From assembly GCA_950295325.1 (NCBI GenBank), contig OX485803.1, forward strand, positions 35,851,554-35,915,553: DNA of 64,000 nucleotides, given 5' to 3'. The stretch comes from Polytrichum commune. Lineage: Eukaryota; Streptophyta; Polytrichopsida; Polytrichales; Polytrichaceae. Position numbers and translations under genes: made by a program. The notes below the pieces were generated by a model. The model saw only the letters and a program-made list of their open reading frames with translations. It did not search any database and was not told where the DNA came from. Shown here one piece after another: positions 1-43,900 of the stretch (within the stretch, counting starts at the first letter, position 1; each line of letters starts with the position of its first letter).

Positions 1-2313
1 ATGTATACATGCTCTGAACAATCACATATTCTTGACAAAAACAATCACTATATTGGTTGCGGAAATTTGGCTAAAGATTCAAGCCACTCAAGTAAGTCGA
101 GTCGAGAATGTTGGGGACCCCTTATAGCATTGGGATATCCATTCTTAGGATATTTCACTATGTGGTTAGCATCATAGGGACTAGCAAAATTAAGATGGGA
201 TGAATCAATCATAGATTTATAGAACGAGAGGGAGTTGTTGCATATGAGCATATCTTTCATCCATCTATGCTAGAAACATGCTCTCATATGGTTGAGGTTA
301 ATTCGTTTCAATTGTGACCCAATAGACTAATTTGGGGGTCTTTGGAGTTGATTTCAGTGCTATTTCATCTTTAAAATAACAAATTTGGACCTGCATGTCA
401 TTCATAGTATTTTGTTGGATTTATGAGAGATATGCTCGTATGCAATAATTCTCCTTGACCAACTTATAGGGCGTATGTATTTCGTCAATCCACTTGCTCA
501 AGGGGCACAAATCCTAAGCCAACAATTAATTTTATGGACAAGTTATTGGGCACGTTGCCACAAAGGGAAACATGAGACTCAATGGAGGTGGGGTTACCAA
601 CAATCGAGGTATATGTGCCTTATGTGGTCATGGCTACACTTAACATCTAGTTCAATGTGGCATCGGGTTTGGTATGCGTGTAGATTATGATGGTCTCCAT
701 GATTTGTCAAAATGCACCAAGTATCATACAACACCCTCTCTAGTTGCCACCCTATAATAGATGGACGGATTTATCAAGGAACTTGTCAAATGGTCTATAA
801 CCATGTAATCAATCTTCTGTAGATCTAAAAACAAACCTTATATCATTGTAGTGTTCATGTATGCACCTTGAAAACAGCTACAATTACCTACATATATTGG
901 AAGTTCATAAAATCTATATATCAACAATGTACGAACATCACAGTCTTATTATATATTATTCACTATTAGTGCTCAACAATAGTTGCAATGCTCCATGATG
1001 TGCACGACCTTGTTGTAGTTTAAAGTTGGGGTTGGATACATGAATGTGGTCACCATGTAGTTAACCTTGCATAGATACATGAATACATGATGCTTGTGTT
1101 TGTAGTATAGTCATTGGCGTTTCCTCCCTATAATGGCTTTGGAGCACATCTTAGGTTAGTTGGAGCAAGTGTCTTGCAAGTGTCTTGCAATTATGGGATA
1201 TTGGAGTGGAGCAATGTTGGTCAATTATGGTCATTATCGCACCATATCTCGGGTATGGAATTGCCGTAACATGGATGATGCAATACCCACCACAAGTGTT
1301 TGTACTCTCCCATTTATTCCTAAGTTTTGTAGTAAGTGCGTTTGGATCAATGCGAGAAGTTATCTTGGAGTACGGGGTGGTAGGGTGGGTGTATGAATGG
1401 GATTGAACTCAAACATGAGGAACAAAATCTAGGGTTTTGAAAGATAATTACCAACATTCCATAAACATAGATCCCTCATGATTATGGAGTTGAAAACCAA
1501 CAATTTCCAAATTTAATACTTGATCCCAAAAGATGATGATGCCAATCGTTACTTATAAGTATTTGCCCAATTAGAAACATAATTCTTCTTGCTCCATGTC
1601 ACAAATTGATTGATGACCGGGGTTCACTCTTCGTTGGAATTCCAAAAGGTGCGCGTGGTGACTATAAAATAAAACCGCTATATACAAAAAAAAAATTGTA
1701 AAGAAAAACAAAGGCATACATACTATACATACTCACCTCCAGAGAAAATCATAGCACCCTACTTATTTGTACAGATCTAGGTGAAACCCTATATATACTT
1801 TTTAATTCTCAATAGTAGCCCTAGTTGTTAGAGTGAAGTGTATGTTAGTTGTGTTTGTTATATGTTGGGTTGCTAGATTCAAGCATGTATGATCATGTGA
1901 AACACAAGTTATTTATCAAAAAATAAAGTTTATGACATGTGAGGCCAAACCACCCACCCTTAAGCGTCCTAGTCCGGGTGAGGGAATGGATATCACATTC
2001 ATGTTTCCACAACTCCATTTGACCAAATTCGTGAGAATCCATTACATCTCCCATCAATCATTGCACACCAATCCATTCCACAATAATATTACAAGCGTTG
2101 ACAAACGCTCTTCTCTATTATCCCAATCATAACACCCCCTATTGCTACCCCAATATCATTCACACCCCAAATTCAACTGCTAATTCTACCATCCAATACT
2201 TTTTGTTTTCCTAGCTTATTAACGAACTAATTATTTAAACTAATATTAAGTGACAACCTAATTAACTATCTATTACCAAGTCCAATGTGGCACCACGGCA
2301 TTCCCATGTAAGG
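1..2313. other. AT-rich stretch without a supported gene
   Basis: I see no gene here. Open frames are short (under 80 codons), without recognisable motifs. Near 411-470 lies one copy of a motif (TGTTGGAT, then GAGAG, then a CAATAATTCTC-like end) that recurs near 28,033, 34,246 and 50,870, so part of this stretch is probably old transposon sequence. A small direct duplication of GCAAGTGTCTT sits at about 1165-1190. Confidence 0.5.
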
Positions 2314-2800: not shown

Positions 2801-3006
2801 ACTAGGTAAATATTCAAATCCTAATTAACCACACTAATCCCCTACTTGACCTCACTAATTCCCACAAGACCCTCTTACTAATCTTCCTACCTAATCACAC
2901 TAAATCCCCTAATAACCTCTTCCTAATTCACACATTTTTTCTAACTCTAAGAGCTCAAAATCCTAGAGAGGATGGGGAGAGAGAGAGAGAGGAGAAGAAG
3001 AGAGGA

Positions 3007-3122
3007 AAATGTTAGCTTCCCCATGTCCTGTGGACATCGGGTTGTTGGCATTACGAACGGACACTCTATTCACGCCGGCCCCTCAAAGGGACCGGAGTTT
3101 CTATCTATCTATCTATCTATCT
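3007..3122 (+). mobile_element. Short retroposon (SINE-like) with a TATC-repeat tail, longer copy
   Basis: A 116-bp segment ends in about seven TCTA/TATC units and is flanked by an exact 11-bp direct repeat, AGAAGAGAGGA (2996-3006 and 3123-3133). It contains two hairpins: ATGTCC-TGT-GGACAT near its 5' end, and a stem formed by CCGGCCCCT and AGGGACCGG with a three-base loop just before the tail. Its 3' two thirds recur at 33,956-34,016. Direct flanking repeats, a simple-repeat tail and 5' truncation of the second copy are hallmarks of target-primed reverse transcription. The flank is purine-rich, which weakens the 11-bp repeat slightly. No clear tRNA-type A or B box was seen, so the promoter class is unknown; it could be the 3' end of a LINE rather than a SINE. 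Confidence 0.7.
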
Positions 3123-3133
3123 AGAAGAGAGGA

Positions 3134-10760: not shown

Positions 10761-11154
10761 TGAAGTTTGATCTCAATCTTCGATTTCGGAACTCACTCTC
10801 TGCAAAATGAGTGCCCTCTACCTCAGAAGCTCAAATCACATACACTGTCAAATATCGCTCGAATGTCAGACAATTTTGAACTATATTGGAAACCGAACGC
10901 TAACAGCTCTGATGAATAATGTTATGATAATGAATTACCACAATAATTCATTTAATGTAGATAATGGGATTGGCTTTTGGTTACATTTGGCTATGGCCGA
11001 GTGCAGTTTGCCCTTTGGGCCATATGTCTCAAGGAGGGACCATGCTAAATTGTTGGGGCTTGAGGCACCATGGGTTTTTAAGCCAAGGCATGCTTTTGTG
11101 CAACTTTCAAGAGATAATCGACTTCCGTTCATGTAGAACCCCCATCTTCTTTTG

Positions 11155-11437
11155 TTGGCTCTGTCTGTAGGACAGAGACTATGCATCAACTTCTTCGTTT
11201 CAAGAGCAAATTTCCTAACCACTTTGTGTTCACACTTGGACGTTACTTGTTCTTGTTATTGTTGGTCCACTTTATGTAATGTGGATGTTATCTATAGTTT
11301 ATTGGCACTGTCTGTAGGACAGAGACTATGCATCAACTTCTTCATTTCAAGAGCAAATTTCCTAACCACTTTGCATTCACACTTGGACGTTACTTGTTAT
11401 TGTTATTGTTGGTCCACTTTATGTAATGTGGACATTA
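11155..11437. repeat. Tandem duplication of a 147-bp unit
   Basis: Two nearly identical copies (11,155-11,301 and 11,302-11,437), each starting TTGGCWCTGTCTGTAGGACAG and ending near CACTTTATGTAATGTGGA. Because 147 is divisible by three, the duplication keeps a frame open and creates a 96-codon frame with repeated peptide, which should not be taken as a gene. High identity suggests a recent duplication. Confidence 0.92.
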
Positions 11438-12493
11438 AATAAAATTATATATGTGTGTGTATATATATAACACTATAATTGCTTCCTAAAATGCATTGAA
11501 AGAAATCTAGTTAACTATAGTTATTTCGGCAGATCTTGATTATGTATTCTAAAAATTTCGGGTAATAAATGGATAGCTTCAATTCTTGACCTGCATTTGA
11601 GAAGAAGGTGCACAAAATCCAAGAAAAGTTTTGTATAGTAAATAGCCATGGATTGGCATGAGCAAAGTAAACAACTATAATTGTGGTCTTTCATAGTAAA
11701 GGACAGAGCCTCACGGTTCTACCGTTTTCTTGTTTGGATTCCGAAGTTGAATCGTTGACTTCTACACATATGAAAGAAAAGGAAAAAGAGAAAAGAAAAT
11801 AATGTGAGTTTTTGAATTATTTGACGTGACTATGAGCCCATTCATCTTTCATAACCATGTTTGACCAAACTCCAAGGTAAGGTGTATATGACCTTCCTTT
11901 CGAAAGGTGGTCTCTATGGGTCCTATGTATTCGTTATCCTGTAGAACTTACAAGGTTGTGTGTTTAGTCACGGTGGTGGGTTTACCGGTGTTTCTTTTCT
12001 TCGTCTTCTTTTTCTTTTTTTGGCTCAAGTTTTCTATTGTTGGGGATTAGATGGGTGAGGACTTTATGGTGTTTTAGTGTATGGCCTTCGTCAAGTTCTT
12101 AATAGTAGGTTTTAGTAAGTTTCTGAGTTTTTGAGTTTCGTTATAGAGTGTTCTTGGATGGCTCCCCATACCCCCAACCGTGATGGTGATTAGTGGATTG
12201 ATGTTCCATCCCCTTGTTTTGGGATGTTGGTTAGTGGGTCGTATTTGTTATGTTTGGTTTTTATGCCCGTTTTGGAAATCGGTCATGATAGTATGTAAAT
12301 ACTATGAGTTGTATTGTGTACGCATGGTTTGGGGTTAAGGGGGGTTGGTTATGATTTGGGGCTCCTAGTATGCATTGTATGTCTAGTCTTAGTTTGGCCA
12401 TGCATTGACAAGTGGCGGTGGGGCATGTGCATGTGAGTAGCCAATCAAGTATAGTTGGGTTTGGGGATTTGTTGTTGATGGTTCTGGCATTTG

Positions 12494-13284
12494 TTAGTGT
12501 AAAAATTGCGTAGCTTCGTTGGCATGTATTGTTTCTAATACGAGGTGTATTGCTTTGTTGTGTCGGGCAATTCGTAGTTTTTTAATATATTGGTTGGTGC
12601 TGGTGGATAGGAGGTGTGGCCAAGTGTCTCTATCATTACTTGGGCATAGAGTGCAATTGGGGTTTAGCTGCGTAGTTGGCCAAAATATATGTTACAATGG
12701 TTGCCCATATATTTTGCGTATCTAGATTTTGATGTTTGAGTAACATTTACGTCAGATATACCAAGTATTTTTTAGGAGTTGAATATTTTGGGGCTTATGT
12801 CTTTGTTGGATAGCCATTTGTCCATGTGTGTGTGTTTATGTTTAGCCATGCTAGTTTTGTGTTACTGATGTTCTTTGCTAATAAAGGTGTGGAGGTTTCG
12901 GATTGAGCCATCGTGTGTGGCGGATCGTGCGCTACCAAGCTAGTACAAAATTGGGTGTGCCATGTGTATGTGGGGGTTGGAAGTTTCTTGGTCTTTGGTG
13001 GCTCCCTCATTTGCCAATTTCTCCGCTATTTCATTGCCAATGATTTGGTGTGTGCACTGACTATTTGTATGGTTATATTTTGTTTTGTCCAAAATATGTC
13101 TTGTATGATGGTTTGTATTAGTAGTTTGTCTGGGTGATTGTGTTGTTAGGATGGATGTTTGATGTGAATGTTGATTAGATATATGCTAGTGAGGTTGTTA
13201 GTGAAGATGTGGGTGTCAAGTTGTGTTGTTTGTATAGCTTTTAATGGCTAGTAATATGGCGTATAGCTTGACTCTAAGGATATT
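12494..13284 (-). mobile_element. Decayed LINE ORF2 3' end (RNase H plus zinc-knuckle-like tail)
   Basis: Reading the minus strand downward from about 13,284, several pieces of a non-LTR retrotransposon ORF2 appear in shifting frames. First is RVKLYAILLAIKSY (RNase H AELYAI region), then THIFTNNLTSIYLINIHIKH (the usual FTDS strand), then GNEIAEKLANEGA (13,000-13,038), the diagnostic RNase H C-terminal motif. Further on comes CTLCPSNDRDTWPHLL (C at 12,655 and 12,646), the C-x2-C...H knuckle of LINE ORF2 tails, then LRIARHNKAIHLVLETIHA and a stop at 12,494. The usual catalytic Glu is Lys and an Asp is Asn, and there are stops and frameshifts, so this copy is dead. About 500-600 bp of GT-rich (plus-strand) DNA at 11,930-12,493 is probably its 3' untranslated part. 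No reverse transcriptase was found upstream, consistent with 5' truncation. Confidence 0.88.
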
Positions 13285-13285
13285 C

Positions 13286-13307
13286 TAGTAGTAGTAGTAG
13301 TAGTAGT
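13286..13307. repeat. (TAG)n microsatellite
   Basis: About seven uninterrupted TAG units, directly at the point where LINE homology is lost. Confidence 0.95.
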
Positions 13308-13309
13308 TC

Positions 13310-14249
13310 TTTTCTTTTTCTTTTCTTGCTATTTGTAGGTTGTTGTAGGGGCTATATATACTCATGTTCCGGCTATGTTTCCTTTTGGCATTTCTAGTTG
13401 GTGGGGTGAAGGAACCATATGTATATATTACACATATGAACCTTCTCAAGCAATGGTCAAGCAAACAACTCAACACCATCATTGTCTATTACATCCATTG
13501 TATCAATTCTTGGGGACTGTTGATTGCACAACGCATGAGCAATGCACTTCAATATTTTGTGTTGAATTAACTGGAATTTTCTACAATGTGGTTTGTTAGG
13601 TATGTTTTGTGTGTTGTCAGTTGTAATTGTGTTTTGTCTAAAATATTGCTTGTGAATTATTAGGCAGTTGTTTGTCAAATCTTGGGATTCAACATATGCC
13701 TCTACAAATGGGGGCTTATATAACATGGAATTGAATGGTTGGTATGTTTTAGTGATGAACCACAAAGACCAAGAGATCTAATTTTTTTGTGTGGTGATGA
13801 TAAAGTTATAGCAAACATCAATTTTTAAAAAAAATGTGAATTTTAGTGTCAAGGAGATTAAATGTTGGTGGTTAATTTTCATTTTTTAAGCTACGTATTT
13901 TGCTACAAACTTGTAACTCTATAGAGGTGATAATTTTGTGTCTGCAAATAAGGTAGTTAAATGTGAGCATGATGCACTTTACATACCTTTGCGTGCACAT
14001 AAAATAATTGCAACAAAGAATTGTTGAAGGTCAAAGACTTTTTGAAGTGTGAATACCACACGATCGTGACGATGTCTACTAACTATTGATAAATGTCTTC
14101 AAATATATTATTGTATATAAGCCAAGGTCTATGTTAATTATAACTAGGATATTCTCTCTAGAAATATTTTTGATAAGATATATTGGGCTAACATGTAGTC
14201 AATCATGTTGTGCATTCTGCAACATGTTCGCGTTGACTTTGGGCATTGT
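13310..14249. other. No supported gene
   Basis: Several short frames on both strands (the largest at 13,457-13,765 on the minus strand) lack motifs. This could include more LINE sequence too decayed to read. Confidence 0.4.
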
Positions 14250-27317: not shown

Positions 27318-28160
27318 TAAGGTAAATGTTATGTAGCTCCGTCTATTGAGGAATTGGGTTGCATGATAGATTGGGTAAGTATCAATGATTGGTCTTGGGA
27401 ATTAGTGTAGATGTGTGGACCATACCATATCTAGGTTACACTATGTTCGGTGGAGCAATCATGATAAATTAAAATAGCCTATTCATGAGCCCGTCCCTTG
27501 AGAGCCGTTCGTGTATATTCAATTCATTGTTGTGGCCAAAGTGATGATCACCATCACAAGAATTTTCTCATTCCACGAAATCACTTGGATAGAATGTGAC
27601 ATTCGTTCCAAATATACTATTAATGATGATGATAATAAAATTTTATTGATTTCGTCCATTTGAAATTAAAATATTGGCAAATAAGATTCCATTTTGGAAA
27701 AAATATTATATTTTGAGATTTGAGATCGATAATTTGAAGAAGAATTTTTTTTTTCAAATAAAATAAAATACATTGCTCGGAAAGGAGACACTAACCTATA
27801 ATGCTACTTGGCAAAGTCCGATACACTATAAGACAAACATGCTCACATCAATATAAAGACGGGGAGAGGGAATTATCGTATATGAATGACATAAAGCGAT
27901 GAAATAGTATGCAACCCGGAGGTTGCTATTTTCAATCGACATGACTCTGGAATCATCTTCCAAGACCTTGAATTAGTGTACTCAAAATCAATTTAGATGA
28001 ATCGGCAACAAACCTATAGGGGAGCAAGGTTCTTATGTTGGATGAATAAGGGGTACACTCGTACACAATAGTTCCCTCTCTCCATCATAGTTTTTATTTT
28101 CTTTCTTTGTTGCAAGAGTTTACAAAATACACCAAATTTTGGTAAAAGTAGGGTACATAA

Positions 28161-33861: not shown

Positions 33862-33955
33862 GGGGGGGGGGGAGTCCATTGATGTTGGATTGCTAAGGGA
33901 TAATTAACACAAATACAACCTTATTGTGGGTGAGAGTCTTTTGTGAAATGAAGGT

Positions 33956-34016
33956 AAACGGACACTCTATTCACGCCGGCCCCTAAAAGGGACCGGAGTT
34001 TCTATCTATCTATCTA
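33956..34016 (+). mobile_element. Short retroposon (SINE-like), 5'-truncated copy with 12-bp target duplication
   Basis: A 61-bp insertion matching the 3' part of 3007-3122 (about 93% or better before the tail): AACGGACACTCTATTCACG, the CCGGCCCCT/AGGGACCGG hairpin, GAGTTTC, then TATC repeats. Exact 12-bp repeats TGAAATGAAGGT flank it (33,944-33,955 and 34,017-34,028). The loop differs (AAA versus CAA) while the stem is identical in both copies. The 5' end lacks about 49 bp present in the first copy, as expected from incomplete reverse transcription. Confidence 0.83.
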
Positions 34017-34519
34017 TGAAATGAAGGTGTTGTGAGTCCCTTTTTTGTAGATCACTTCTTACACCGACACATTGAGCGGATAGGTCCCCCAATAGGCATT
34101 GTGATTGGCCAAAGTTGGTGCTCTTCTAAAAGTGTTCTTGTATCTTTCTTACACTCACTTGTTGGTGGTTAAAAGAATAAAATAAAGGTAGTGTGGAAAG
34201 ATATATTTATACTTTAAGACCTCAATACCTTAAGGGTCATGTGTTTATGTTGGATGGGTGAGAGGTATGCTTGTATACGATAATTCCCTCGGTGGATGAT
34301 AACCTCCCATGTGCAAACATTTAGTGGAGGGGCCTTTGACAAGATCAGGGTTGGGACCTGCAACTTGTGACCCTTGGGCAACCCCCAAAAATAAATTTCA
34401 AGCCCCCGCTAAAATTGTTGCATGTGTAGCCCGACTTCAAAAAAAAAGTTACCCTTGCATTCTTGAAAATTGTTTTCTCCACAAAGCCCATATTGAGTGC
34501 ACCTCGCCTTCAAGGCCCA

Positions 34520-38654: not shown

Positions 38655-40260
38655 GTATCTCTTCTCCTTGACTTGGACACACAAGCTTATTACAACCGCA
38701 AATTTATTGTGAACCTAAAAAGGTTTGTTGTATAATTTCCTGGGTGGTTATCACATTTACGTACCTTTCTCTTTAAAGGAAGTTGATATTTTCTTATGAA
38801 AATTCATGAAATCTCTAGCCTGGAATAGCACTTCAACTTTTCTGTCAGTTTTATTTTCTTCGTTACTTTCCCTTTGAGATAAAGGACACGTGAACTTCCT
38901 TTGTGACCCCTCTCCCTTTGATGGGGAACGCTCCGATGCTTTTGTGCTAGAGTGGTTTGAAATAACTACTTTGACTACATGTTTGAGGCAAACAACTTGG
39001 AATGCGTGGTCGGATTACGTATGCTAAAACATTCATCTGCTCGGGATTGTCAACTATTTTGGCAATTACACTGTTCTTTCCGTTGCTTCAAGGCTTAAAT
39101 AATAGCTGGAGAGTCTTGCCATACATGATAATAAGTTGTCCTTCTACACTGATTTGGTGTGGGTGTCCAGCAAGGCTTGAAAAGTTCGAGGAGCACTCTT
39201 TGTAATGCTATGGATATGTTTGGTTGGACCAACCATGTTGCCATGTCTCCTGCGTACATAGTATACTGTGCGCCTTCGGTAATCAAATCCCAATGGCATG
39301 ACCACTAATTCTTTTCAAAGCTTTGAAGGACATTGTAGTGTGGATATTACACTAAATTTTAAATGTTCACAGTAATTCTTTGGTTTGACATGTGATTGTG
39401 ACCCACACGGATTTAGGTCCTAATATTTCTAAAAATTAAGGCATACTAAGACCACAATATTACAGTGTGAAAATGTAGATATTTTAATATTGCAATTTAT
39501 CAATCTGTGATGTATAAATCTGTCACATGATACCATAGTGTTTAAAAACCATTATCTTACACACAAAAGAACTTGTATTTAAATCGAATCGACTCTCATA
39601 TAACTAGTGTCACTCAACAATAAGTCGATATTATTTCTAGGTCAAATGAGTTACATGATGTAGCACATCTGACAATTTTCACTTGACTTTCAGTGATTAG
39701 TCTAGTGAGACTAAACTAATATGGTGGGACATTTGAGCATCTTGTTTATCTTGGTGATTGATTTCTACAAATTATCCTAGTGCAGTCGGAGTCGTCAAAC
39801 AAGAAGAATGAAGCATCTGAACAGATACTCAAGTAGATCAAAAAATCGAAATTGAATGAAAACCAAACCTACCTGAAGCTATTCTACCCTACTTTGTAAA
39901 AGTTCAAAGCTTATTTGAAGGCAATTAATACGTATGTTTGTAGCCCAAATTCTCAGTCGAGTGATAAACATTATACTTTTGCTACAGAAAATAGTTTCTT
40001 GATTTTTATTGCTTTCAGCTCCATGCTTTTGAGTAAGTAAAATCAGGGTGCCACCAGTTTAGAAAGTGAGAGCTCAATTGTTAATATTATGACAATTTTC
40101 TTAATTTCCTAATGAAGGCAGTCTATTAACTCCTTCGTGATTGTTGTTTTGTGACATGGTTCAATCGGAGCAGAGGACGTAAAACTGAACGTCAAGATCG
40201 TCGAATTTCAAGTATTAATTCTGTTGAAAGAACTATTTGAGCTGAGTCTGCTTTCTGCAG
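38655..40260 (+). other. Probable intron or upstream region of the ankyrin gene
   Basis: AT-rich, no supported gene. It begins with a GT donor-like site and ends with a pyrimidine-preceded CTTTCTGCAG acceptor at 40,260, so it may be the leader intron. Confidence 0.35.
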
Positions 40261-40282
40261 TGGCAGTGGCGGTTCGTTTACA

Positions 40283-43200
40283 ATGGCTACCCGAAGTATC
40301 AGTGTTTCAAACATAGATTCCCCAAATCGTGATGTTCCAAGCATGGATTTCCTAGATATTGATATCATCTCAGAGAAGGAATGGAAGGAGAAGTTTGCAG
40401 ATACTACACATATATACGATTACAAACGGTTCCTGACATGGGCTAAGCAATGGCGGAGTCCCGGAAGGTTGCGAAGGTTTCTTTCGAAAGGGAATATGTC
40501 GGAGTGGACTCTACACAAAGCTGCCAGACTTGGGGCACATGATGTGATAGGTTTTCTTCTGGAAATGGGCAGAGTAGATATCAACAAGGCTGATGACAAC
40601 AAGAAGACTGCACTTCACCACGCTGCTTGGGAAGGTCATTTGGACATTGTCAATGCGCTTTTGGATGTTAAAGACATAAATGTGAGTCTTGGCGATATGA
40701 GGGGAAACACTCCGCTTCATGCGGCTGCATTTAAGGGGCATGTCACAATTGTTGGCAAGCTCTTAGCAATCTCCAACTTGGATGTGAACAGCACCAATGA
40801 CCGGAAAGACACTGCACTCCATCTGGGGGCAAGGAAAGGCCATGACAGGATAGTTGACGCACTCTTAAAAGTACCGAATGTGGAGGTTCATGTGCAGAAT
40901 AACCTTGGCAATACTCCATTGCATGAATCTGCGAGGCTTGGTCACGGGGTGATTGCGAAGATGATCCTAGCAACATCAAGAGTGGATGTTAATACCAAAA
41001 ACAGCGACAAATCATCGGCTCTCCACCTTGCCACTGCTGGTAGTCATGAGGATGTGGTGGATTTGCTCCTAAAAGAACCAACTGTGGATCCTTCTTTGCA
41101 GGACCATCGTGGAGACACTCCCCTCCACATTGCTGCATGGTATGGTAATGAGATCATTTTCGACAAGCTCTTGGACGCAATGCCAACAGCTGATGTAAAC
41201 AAATGCAATAATATGAAGAACACTGCGCTGCATTATGCGGTGTATACACATAAATTGAATGTGGTTGACAAGCTGTTGAAGGTGGAAAATGTGGATCCAT
41301 GTGTGAAGGGAGGAGCGCGTGACAACACTCCACTTCACATTGCTGCAATGGTGGGTGACATTGTGATCGTTGAGAAACTTTTAGCAACAGGGAAGGTGGA
41401 TGTGAATGCAACAAACTTGTATCAGCACACCACACTCCACTTTGCTACGTACTCGGGTCGTTTCAATGTGGTCGAAGTGCTGTTGGCAATACCAAATCTA
41501 GATCCTAGTATGCGGGATAAGGATGGTGATACTCCACTTCACGAAGCTGCAAGGTATGGCCATGGAGGTCTTGTTGACAGGCTCATGGCAATGCCATCCG
41601 TGAATGTGAACGCACCGAATGAAAAACAACAGACTCCAATGCACCTTGCGGCGGAAGGGGGCCATGAACATGTAATTGACTTGCTCTTGAAGGATCCAAA
41701 TGTGGACCCTTGTTTCAAGGATCATCATGGTAACTCTCCTCTTCATGTTGCTGCGAACACGGGTCATGAAACCATTGTTGAGAAGCTTTTGACACTACCA
41801 GGAGCGGATGGTAACCAAACGAATGAGGACAACATGACACCACTTCACTTGGGTGTCAAAGGAGGTCATGACAAAGTAGTTGACATCCTGTTGAATGAAC
41901 CAACTGTGGATGCAACGATGAAGGATTATTACGGTGATTTTCCACTACACCATGCCGCCAGAAAAGGGGATGGGATCATATTTGGGAAGATTCTGAGAGC
42001 ACCAGGAGTGGACGTGAATGGGGTCAATGAGCACCAGGACACCGCTCTTCATGTTGCTGCAAGGGAAGGTCATGTCGAGGTCGTTGACATGCTCTTAGAG
42101 GAGCTGGGTTTACGCGCAAGCATGCGAAATCGCGACGGCAATTGTGCTATTCATGTGGCAGCAAGAAATGGTGAGGAAAGCATCGTGGAGAAGATTTTGA
42201 GATGCAGAGGGGTGAATGTCAATGCCAAGGGTGAAGATGGTGCGACCGCATTGCACATTGCTGCACAAGAGGGTTATCTTCAAGTTGTCAATGTGCTCCT
42301 GAAGGTTCCGAATGTGGCAGCAAGCGGTCAGGACTATGAGGGGGTGTCTCCTCTTCATTATGCTGCACAAGAAGGGCATGTTGCCGTTGTTGAGAGTATC
42401 CTCGCACATGGAGTCGATGTAAATCAGACTTCTCGATACGAAGGTATGACGCCGTTGTTCTATGCTGCGAGTTCTGGACAAGTGAAAGTTGTTGAGGTGC
42501 TTCTCAAGTCACCCAAAGTGGATCCAAATCTAAGGAACCGAGAGAACGTTCACCCTCTCCATGTTGCTGCTTGGAAGGGCCACAAAGTGGTTGTCGAGAG
42601 GTTTTTGGCCGTAGGAGGAATTGATGTAAATGCGGTGTCCAACGGTCAAACTGCACTCCACCTGGCTGCAAAGTTTGGGAACGAAAAAGTCGTGAAGATC
42701 CTCCTTGAGATACCAGGTATAAATGTTCATATCCAGAACAATGCTGGTGAAACTGCTCTATTTCCTGCTGCTAGAGGGGACTACAAAACAGTATTGCAGG
42801 ATATCTACAATGCAAGTAAGGTGAACACAAGTGGTGGCGAGCATAGCGTTCGGGGCCGATTGGATGTGAATGCTCTGAACAATGCAGGCGAGGGTATAAT
42901 CCACATAGCTGCTCGCCTTGAGTGTCTGAACGTCATCGATTTTTTATTGGAGGTCCTCCATGAGGATGCCAAAAGTGTGGATGTGAACAAGAAAACAGTA
43001 CCTCCAAAGTCCGACTCAAAGAATGCCGAGTCACAATCCACATCAAGATTTGTTGGTGAATCTGCCCTTGAGATAGCTATTAGGATGAAAAACTATGCAA
43101 TCATCGAGAGATTAACAAAATTCAACAATGAAATCAGCGTCACCGTTGAAGATGCAGAGGGGATGACTATGCTTCAACGAATATTCGACGACAGTGAAAT

Positions 43201-43900
43201 GTGGGAGATTTTCAAAATTCTACGAAGGACACCTGAAGTCAAGGACTATATTGATGCACTTTACAAAGATCGTCAGGCCACTATAGATGCAGGAACCGCG
43301 ATCTTGGTGGGAGCAGCCCTTATTGCGAGTGTCACCTTTGCTTCTTGGCTGCAACCTCCTTTGGGGTACACAACATACTATCATGAAGAAATCGTGGACA
43401 CTTTACCAGCCCCGCCCGTTTCGTACCCCCAGTACGTTGCTTTTGATCATCACCCAATTTTGCGGATGTTTTGGGTGTGCAATAGCTTGTCATTTTTCTC
43501 TGCCATCGCTACCGTCATCTCAGGAGCTCGTAGTACGCTTCCCGCGCGCAAAGTCTTCATCAAGCAAGAAGTGTTGAACCTCCGACGCAACCTTCTCATC
43601 ACATCTATCTTACTGGGATTCTCCATGCTCTTCGTTCTGTTGGCATTCGCAATGGCTGGAATCGCAGTGCTCCCACCTGTCCAAAAATTCAGGGTAAATA
43701 TTTTCTCCACCATCGGCGTCGGAGGAAGTCTGTGCGTAGTGTTCTTATTCTTGTTCGGGAGAAACATCTATGAATTGCTCTACGATATCCTGCATTCCAA
43801 GAAAAATAAGGTTAAGAGCACTTATGAGTGGCTGCCGCGGCTCAGATCTTGGAATGGTTGGACAAGCAACTGTATTCGAAGAAAATCGGGCAATGAATGA
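40283..43900 (+). CDS. Ankyrin-repeat protein with C-terminal PGG membrane domain (1,205 aa)
   Basis: An uninterrupted single-exon coding region. The start sits in a good plant context (TTACAATGGC), and no upstream in-frame Met is needed. Residues 1-72 are a unique leader. From about 73 to 960 there are about 25 ankyrin repeats of mostly 34 residues (G-x-TPLH-x-AA-x-x-GH...VV-x-x-LL). The last ones are degenerate, with a polar insert around 915-935. From about 1006 follows a PGG-type domain: AILVGAALIASVTFASW, then PPLGY in place of the name-giving PGG, with four hydrophobic segments at about 1006-1024, 1064-1082, 1104-1130 and 1144-1158, and a basic tail. This is the layout of the plant ACD6/ITN1-like family, membrane proteins often linked to immunity and salt or ROS responses, but it has far more repeats than most members, which usually have fewer than ten. 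Ligand and role are unknown. Telomere-type motifs follow the stop. Confidence 0.96.
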   Translation: MATRSISVSNIDSPNRDVPSMDFLDIDIISEKEWKEKFADTTHIYDYKRFLTWAKQWRSPGRLRRFLSKGNMSEWTLHKAARLGAHDVIGFLLEMGRVDINKADDNKKTALHHAAWEGHLDIVNALLDVKDINVSLGDMRGNTPLHAAAFKGHVTIVGKLLAISNLDVNSTNDRKDTALHLGARKGHDRIVDALLKVPNVEVHVQNNLGNTPLHESARLGHGVIAKMILATSRVDVNTKNSDKSSALHLATAGSHEDVVDLLLKEPTVDPSLQDHRGDTPLHIAAWYGNEIIFDKLLDAMPTADVNKCNNMKNTALHYAVYTHKLNVVDKLLKVENVDPCVKGGARDNTPLHIAAMVGDIVIVEKLLATGKVDVNATNLYQHTTLHFATYSGRFNVVEVLLAIPNLDPSMRDKDGDTPLHEAARYGHGGLVDRLMAMPSVNVNAPNEKQQTPMHLAAEGGHEHVIDLLLKDPNVDPCFKDHHGNSPLHVAANTGHETIVEKLLTLPGADGNQTNEDNMTPLHLGVKGGHDKVVDILLNEPTVDATMKDYYGDFPLHHAARKGDGIIFGKILRAPGVDVNGVNEHQDTALHVAAREGHVEVVDMLLEELGLRASMRNRDGNCAIHVAARNGEESIVEKILRCRGVNVNAKGEDGATALHIAAQEGYLQVVNVLLKVPNVAASGQDYEGVSPLHYAAQEGHVAVVESILAHGVDVNQTSRYEGMTPLFYAASSGQVKVVEVLLKSPKVDPNLRNRENVHPLHVAAWKGHKVVVERFLAVGGIDVNAVSNGQTALHLAAKFGNEKVVKILLEIPGINVHIQNNAGETALFPAARGDYKTVLQDIYNASKVNTSGGEHSVRGRLDVNALNNAGEGIIHIAARLECLNVIDFLLEVLHEDAKSVDVNKKTVPPKSDSKNAESQSTSRFVGESALEIAIRMKNYAIIERLTKFNNEISVTVEDAEGMTMLQRIFDDSEMWEIFKILRRTPEVKDYIDALYKDRQATIDAGTAILVGAALIASVTFASWLQPPLGYTTYYHEEIVDTLPAPPVSYPQYVAFDHHPILRMFWVCNSLSFFSAIATVISGARSTLPARKVFIKQEVLNLRRNLLITSILLGFSMLFVLLAFAMAGIAVLPPVQKFRVNIFSTIGVGGSLCVVFLFLFGRNIYELLYDILHSKKNKVKSTYEWLPRLRSWNGWTSNCIRRKSGNE

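Follow-up and report, generated by a model that had tools for sequence, protein, structure and literature searches.

The LINEs of plants are described as L1 and RTE elements, both of which often encode RNase H (excerpts of PMC9033089), and in the available excerpts of a survey of SINE-LINE pairs the flowering-plant partners are almost only L1, with some RTE (PMC3747384). According to the same excerpts, RTE LINEs and the TS SINE of tobacco and potato have ~100 3’ bases in common and tandem-repeat tails, those of plant RTEs being (TTG)n or (TTGATG)n, while monocot L1 and SINE ends form a hairpin with compensatory changes (PMC3747384). Dualen/RandI LINEs, which encode an APE together with a PD-(D/E)XK-like endonuclease (PMC3636483, PMC4640811) and for which RNase H is reported (PMC4640811), occur in Chlamydomonas and its relatives (PMC8226300); the accessible portions of two compilations list Dualen/RandI from green algae only (PMC4438587) and SINE-LINE pairs with RandI for Chlamydomonas only (PMC3747384). 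Among the matches listed in a literature search whose scope lay outside Repbase and most subscription journals, none described Dualen/RandI from a land plant, mosses included; ‘Randi’ in conifer papers proved to be a person’s name.

We analysed a 64,000-nt stretch of the Polytrichum commune genome (the window), which holds two short insertions, copy 1 and copy 2 (Table 1). A moss host also fits contig C8, which carries psaA and psaB: its PsaA scored highest against 8htu (1723.8 bits) and 6l35 (1703.6), taken to be structures of the moss Physcomitrium, followed by 9lut (1698) and by 7wfd (1651), taken to be from a flowering plant. Both copies are very probably 5’-truncated LINE A insertions; LINE A is a non-LTR retrotransposon of 12 kb whose domains and sequence motifs give the Dualen/RandI architecture. 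More broadly, we consider it likely that a land plant harbours several abundant families of 12-kb Dualen-type LINEs that carry a PCIF1-like domain and a 2A-like break, and that the conserved 3’ RNA structure recognised by the RT of these LINEs has been captured by a SINE, giving a moss SINE-LINE pair outside L1 and RTE. If this is true, an abundant Dualen-type system, apparently a recent one, in a moss would mean that the lineage outlasted the move onto land, while several LINE families and a SINE with a common 3’ end would offer a direct test bed for 3’-end recognition by dual-endonuclease LINEs.

As far as the excerpts of the relevant papers go, a close match is Dualen/RandI with SINEX of Chlamydomonas (PMC3747384, PMC3636483, PMC4640811; Kojima and Fujiwara 2005 via citations), which is alike in combining an APE and RNase H with a restriction-like endonuclease (RLE), here a putative one, in SINEs that carry the LINE 3’ end, and in short-tandem-repeat tails such as (ATT)n. 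In contrast, the host here is a moss, the element measures 12 kb, the tail is (TATC)n or (TTTTC)n and the common block spans ~142 nt; moreover, those excerpts make no mention of the PCIF1-like domain and 2A-like NPGP found here. The tobacco/potato pair is likewise a SINE-LINE pair with a common 3’ end and a tandem-repeat tail, whereas here RNase H and RLE motifs form part of a LINE frame of 2,625 aa. LINE1-1_ZM with ZmSINE2/3 (excerpts of PMC3747384) likewise has a stringent-type common 3’ hairpin with compensatory changes, but belongs to the L1 clade, has SINE tails of (T)n and a related end of ~50 nt.

The sequence-only reading of the window had reported common 3’ ends, TATC tails and exact target duplications of 11 and 12 bp, all borne out by the window sequence, in which AGAAGAGAGGA (11 bp) and TGAAATGAAGGT (12 bp) each occur exactly twice. 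The hairpin that it placed before the tail, with a kept stem and a changed loop, is likewise there: CCGG-CCCC...GGG-A-CCGG lies directly 5’ of the tail in both copies, with the loop TCAAA in copy 1 and TAAAA in copy 2. Its folding energy of -12.6 kcal/mol compares with mononucleotide-shuffle means of -6.6 (copy 1) and -5.9 (copy 2), and was reached by 8/500 and 7/500 shuffles, respectively. The 18-mer GGGACCGGAGTTTCTATC occurred twice in the window with up to three mismatches, and 0.00 times on average in 100 shuffles. Copy 2 had been called 5’-truncated and copy 1 had been given the extent 3007-3122; copy 2 is indeed truncated, but so is copy 1, at another point (bodies of 47 and 88 bp, respectively, tail extra), and its recognisable element begins only after a 7-nt filler unlike the family. 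ARAGORN detected no tRNA in the 64-kb window, and an Rfam search with a window copy gave only matches below gathering scores.

Table 1. Retrotransposon features of the 64,000-nt window, with the evidence for each.
Feature	Positions	Strand	Evidence
Copy 1, 5’ target-site duplication (TSD) AGAAGAGAGGA	2996..3006	+	Exact repeat at 3123-3133
Copy 1, 5’ junction filler AAATGTT between TSD and recognisable element	3007..3013	+	No match to LINE A
Copy 1, 5’-truncated LINE A 3’ end (very probable)	3014..3101	+	92/99 vs L063 (filler and first tail unit counted); class A
Copy 1, terminal hairpin	3075..3095	+	Sequence reading and folding energy
Copy 1, tail (TATC)5T	3102..3122	+	Sequence reading
Copy 1, 3’ TSD AGAAGAGAGGA	3123..3133	+	Exact repeat of 2996-3006
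Copy 2, 5’ TSD TGAAATGAAGGT	33944..33955	+	Exact repeat at 34017-34028
Copy 2, 5’-truncated LINE A 3’ end (very probable)	33956..34002	+	51/51 vs L063 (first tail unit counted); class A
Copy 2, terminal hairpin	33976..33996	+	Sequence reading and folding energy
Copy 2, tail (TATC)3TA	34003..34016	+	Sequence reading
Copy 2, 3’ TSD TGAAATGAAGGT	34017..34028	+	Exact repeat of 33944-33955
Decayed lineage D LINE coding remnant (RNase H and RLE regions)	12161..13425	-	tblastn with the protein of LINE A (E=1e-31); pieces 27-53% identical
3’ end of the same lineage D remnant	11798..11886	-	Covariance model R1, 18.2 bits, E=0.012

The same reading had proposed searching the genome for further copies, for duplications at their flanks and for a longer LINE with the same 3’ end, and all three were found. 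The last 20 bases, GGGACCGGAGTTTCTATCTA, had 900 exact matches (436 on the + and 464 on the - strand) in the 407.8-Mb genome, and the reversed control had none. For classification we took the 60 matches at the head of the list, which all lie on contig C1 and have an intact 20-mer; their target sites were examined together with those of the window copies, each locus being read with ~700 bases upstream (a body limit of 690 bp). Full SINEs of ~363 bp made up 27/60 and shorter SINE-type copies 9/60, while 12/60 were LINE copies exceeding the DNA read (10 A, 2 B); the remainder comprised shorter LINE copies (4 A, 2 B, 5 C) and one copy too short to place, class calls below ~60 bp being weak since few loop bases decide them. 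The shortest bodies were ~20 bp long, and the longest ran past the 690 bp that were read.

Most sampled copies lay between duplications of 8-17 bp. Flanking matches of at least 10 nt were present in 44/62 copies compared with 7/310 deliberately mismatched pairs, and matches of at least 12 nt in 30/62 compared with 0/310; two copies (L011, L037) had 8-nt matches only, and 16/62 had no duplication, 12 of them with the 5’ end outside the DNA read and four (L010, L012, L017, L059) unexplained. For 42/46 matched copies, the 5’ end given by the duplication differed from the homology-based one by no more than 5 nt; larger offsets occurred in L011 (6 nt), L046 (14 nt), window copy 1 (7 nt, the length of its filler) and L055 (371 nt, where the match is due to chance). 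For the target-site table (n=45) we took these 46 copies without L055, L011, L037 and the AT-repeat-like matches L009 and L033, and added four long LINEs. The first duplicated base was T at 44/45 sites, with window copy 1 as the sole exception, and was preceded by G (30), A (11) or T (4), never C, after an AT-rich run; the four long LINEs had T in 4/4, preceded by G, G, A and G. The exact insertion boundary is ambiguous because the tail unit also starts with T. LINE, SINE and truncated copies all occur at this type of site, an AT-rich run followed first by a base that is mostly G or A and then by T.

Four LINE A copies between exact 12-bp duplications measured 11,967, 12,490, 12,702 and 12,613 bp; the shortest begins 484 bp inside the 12,490-bp copy and may be slightly truncated. 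Over the first 1.9-2 kb, the two C1 copies among the four had only a 113- or 147-bp block (74-75%) in common with the 12,490-bp copy, one of them also sharing the last 34 bp of that region. Since the outer parts differ, the 5’ region appears to be variable or exchanged, as if 5’ ends had passed between subfamilies. Among L080, L082, L084 and L085, the outer 5’ regions (1-2 kb) differ and the 113-147-bp block is common to three of the four.

In Pfam, LINE A matched RVT_1 (8e-25), a PCIF1_WW-like domain (2e-10, above cut-off) and RNase H (PF00075, 4e-13). The APE region upstream of the RT carries the motifs QETK/GDFN/SDH by reading; one protein (P0003) matched PF14529 below cut-off (E=0.0013), and another of lineage A (P0002, APE region and RT start) had no Pfam match and in PDB matched only R2 (E=0.04), while the APE segment had no relative in PDB, where its one match (E=0.77) was a heat-shock protein. 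Two pieces of an ORF1-like 747-aa frame had no Pfam match over cut-off. R2 elements are not known to encode an APE and insert site-specifically in rDNA, unlike the dispersed copies here. The LINE RT found its best PDB matches among R2 proteins (2e-22; 9nl2, 8gh6, 8ibw and others) and matched chain 8c8j, which we take to be the human L1 RT, at 5.8e-9; NCBIfam and PADLOC gave generic RT matches and weak others.

RLE domains carry the motifs CCHC, RHN, R/KPD...E and K..KY. At the C-terminus of LINE A we read CPIC...H...C, RHN, RPD, IEF and K..KY, and RHN, PD, IEFTY and K..KY were invariant in 6/6 proteins (one A, one B, four D); of the CCHC in these proteins the H was invariant, the B fragment starting after the first two C and having Y for the last. 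A phmmer search of this region against PDB gave 0 matches, and the top match of a profile was R2 (CCHC-RHN region of 8gh6/8ibw) at a non-significant E=1.1, so that homology to an RLE is proposed at the level of motifs. Three of the best 150 of 5,048 RLE-segment candidates lie in one open frame of 2,625 aa. RTE elements are compact LINEs with an APE and an RT and are not known to carry an RLE. The partner LINE had been surmised to be RTE-like, a suggestion we abandon because RNase H and RLE motifs accompany the APE in this frame.

The PCIF1_WW-like domain lies between RT and RNase H (L067 584-4999, - strand, residues 718-813), and NPPF, the usual catalytic motif of PCIF1, is not evident there by eye; our literature search for PCIF1 with ‘non-LTR retrotransposon’ returned no paper. 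Before the APE, a 2A-like D.E.NPGP was present in 5/5 LINE A copies and, in the same pattern, in 1/3 lineage D proteins, which suggests a co-translational break within the 2,625 aa. GDIEPNPGP and variants of it precede the APE in L073, L074, L075, L076, L077 and L117.

From 26 full copies with duplications at 325-355 nt (L020 excluded) we derived a SINE consensus of 363 nt, to which the copies were 96.1-99.7% identical (median 98.3%). Its head had 831 genome matches with up to two mismatches, and the control none. The SINE has the features of a LINE-SINE pair: a 3’ end common with the LINE, the tail and target duplications. The Pol III consensus is TRGCNNARYNGG for the A box and GGTTCGANTCC for the B box; the SINE has TGGCTTGGTGGT at position 16, with 8/10 specified bases of the former, and GGTTCTATTCC at position 60, one mismatch from the latter, the two starts lying 44 apart. 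A tRNA origin is thereby only suggested, because neither ARAGORN nor Rfam detected a tRNA in the SINE. LINE A and LINE C (L063, L067, L072) carry an antisense B-box-like TCGAACCCGG in their 3’ UTRs, possibly from an old SINE insertion.

A 3’ block of ~142 nt, ending in the hairpin and (TATC)n, is common to LINE A, B and C and the 363-bp SINE. Compared in bins of 50 columns, the SINE was 82-92% identical to the three LINEs in every one of the three terminal bins and 24-34% in the next; the LINE families were 76-90% identical to one another within the block and 37-43% beyond it. LINE A and B were 82-90% identical there, yet synonymous sites of their RLE regions were saturated (pS 0.79, pN 0.18), and the block has therefore been held or repeatedly exchanged. 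Within the A/B/C/SINE structure, drawn from 13 chosen sequences with one hairpin arm fixed by the search anchor, a double change was seen in only 1/28 pairs.

The window also holds a decayed remnant of a more distant lineage, D (Table 1), with a T/C-rich tail at ~11797-11772 (minus strand); among the best 150 of 3,695 candidates scored, other genome matches were 57-65% identical to it. Lineage D and LINE A proteins were 33-43% identical by matched piece and 44-46% over the C-terminal alignment. All three D proteins scanned had APE and RT and the motifs QETK/GDFN/SDH, with PF14529 above cut-off in 3/3 (5e-8 to 2e-7) and PF03372 in 2/3; RNase H (PF00075) was found in 2/2 (1.5e-16, 1.9e-15) and a PCIF1-like stretch, below cut-off, in 2/2. 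At 21/25 loci (L087-L111 with the searched 3’ motif, without L092, L098, L099 and L107) the 3’ end has stem 1 joined by the linker AACGGGCTC..ATTCA to a terminal hairpin, with a T/C tail that is usually of the TTTTC type, and at the corresponding places LINE A shows, by eye, AACGGACAC...ATTCA, a hairpin and TATC.

Compensatory changes occurred in 11 of the 24 pairs of the lineage D structure, ten in stem 1 and one in the terminal hairpin, and 94.0% of cells were paired, compared with 23-40% for slid versions. Of 500 shuffles, none reached the observed pairing, covariation score or doubly changed cells, one reached the number of doubly changed pairs and 110 the number of pair types. With E values allowed up to 10, the lineage D model missed the A/B/C/SINE 3’ ends in L001, L002, L006, L013, L020, L067 and L071 as well as window copy 1; its match to window copy 2 was weak (E=0.074) and placed stem 1 in flanking DNA. 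Because the model misses most of these ends, the likeness of the D and LINE A ends is one seen by eye, and because of these misses and the 1/28 double change, covariation is established for lineage D only. In L020 the lineage D model marks another element end, at 563-657 (+), in opposite orientation to the sampled copy (E=4e-5), and at 27790-27877 (+) of the window there is a weak match to the D structure (E=1.2), an old truncated copy or chance.

A stringent-type LINE that works by target-primed reverse transcription would fit the common 3’ end, the graded 5’ truncation, the duplications and the T found at the primer position, a base that could pair with the tail. We propose that the LINE protein would bind the 3’ RNA structure and nick DNA at sites of the kind found here; the primer’s terminal A would anneal to the U of a UAUC unit, so that target-primed reverse transcription would start at the tail. 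Most likely, it is the RT that recognises the 3’ RNA end. Early stops would leave short 5’-truncated copies, and the SINE would parasitise the LINE machinery via its copied 3’ end.

What the two window copies are can be read in other ways. The sequence-only reading had seen in them a small retroposon family of 61-116 bp, which would be among the shortest, perhaps mobilised by an RTE-like LINE; retroposition, duplications, 3’ hairpin, short-tandem-repeat tail and abundance all stand, but no family with a length of its own emerged, and because sampled bodies go down to ~20 bp, 61-116 bp is one stretch of a series of graded truncations that extends beyond 690 bp. An independent ultra-short, SINE-like family would explain the tandem-repeat tail and why most matches listed start at one base when a truncated window copy is the query. 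However, we rejected a single common 5’ end, as the apparent start is where the query itself ends matching, and sampled SINE loci run to 363 bp and LINE loci to 690 bp or more; with LINE A as the best match of the window copies, and a partner LINE bearing RNase H and RLE motifs, such a family is hardly credible. It is also very improbable that the copies are truncated 363-bp SINEs, even though the 142-nt end is common to both, SINEs are the commonest class sampled, and copy 2 scores 49/51 with the SINE consensus, equal to its score with LINE A copy L067. With gaps, for example against the longer SINE loop, left out of the counts, copy 1 matches L063 at 92/99 and L067 at 91/99 compared with 84/99 for the SINE, and copy 2 matches L063 at 51/51; moreover, the hairpin loop and diagnostic positions are of the LINE A type, and the 27 full sampled SINEs include no subfamily with the LINE A diagnostic bases.

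Two further alternatives concern the LINE itself and its 3’ end. Its RT matches solved R2 proteins best and 8c8j as well, the element is unusual in its PCIF1-like insert and its length, and the assignment to Dualen/RandI is one of domain architecture, so that a different or unnamed clade, such as an R2- or L1-related lineage with gained domains, deserves attention; with motifs of both endonuclease types where they are expected, one at either end of the lineage A and D proteins, and RNase H present, we nevertheless regard it as unlikely. The 3’ block, in turn, might be alike through repeated exchange of 3’ ends by template switching or conversion rather than through selection for recognition. 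Its sharp boundary between families would be expected from exchange, 5’ regions also appear exchanged, and the D model fails to recognise the A/B/C/SINE ends; but exchange predicts neither the similar layout of lineage D (by eye) nor its compensatory changes nor its different tail, and repeated exchange would itself suggest that the 3’ end is needed. We judge exchange distinctly unlikely, and favour a 3’ end conserved for recognition by Dualen-type LINEs. The misses of the D model and the variable LINE 5’ ends make the main reading, with the window copies as truncated LINE A, slightly less sure, and exchange and the SINE origin of the copies slightly likelier.

Elsewhere in the window, positions 11151-11432 form a 147-bp tandem duplication (1.9 copies, 95%) that resembles the LINE B 3’ UTR (L071 4473-4613) in inverted orientation, and positions 40241-43900 (+) hold a single open frame of 1,219 aa that reads as many ankyrin repeats followed by a hydrophobic C-terminal region.
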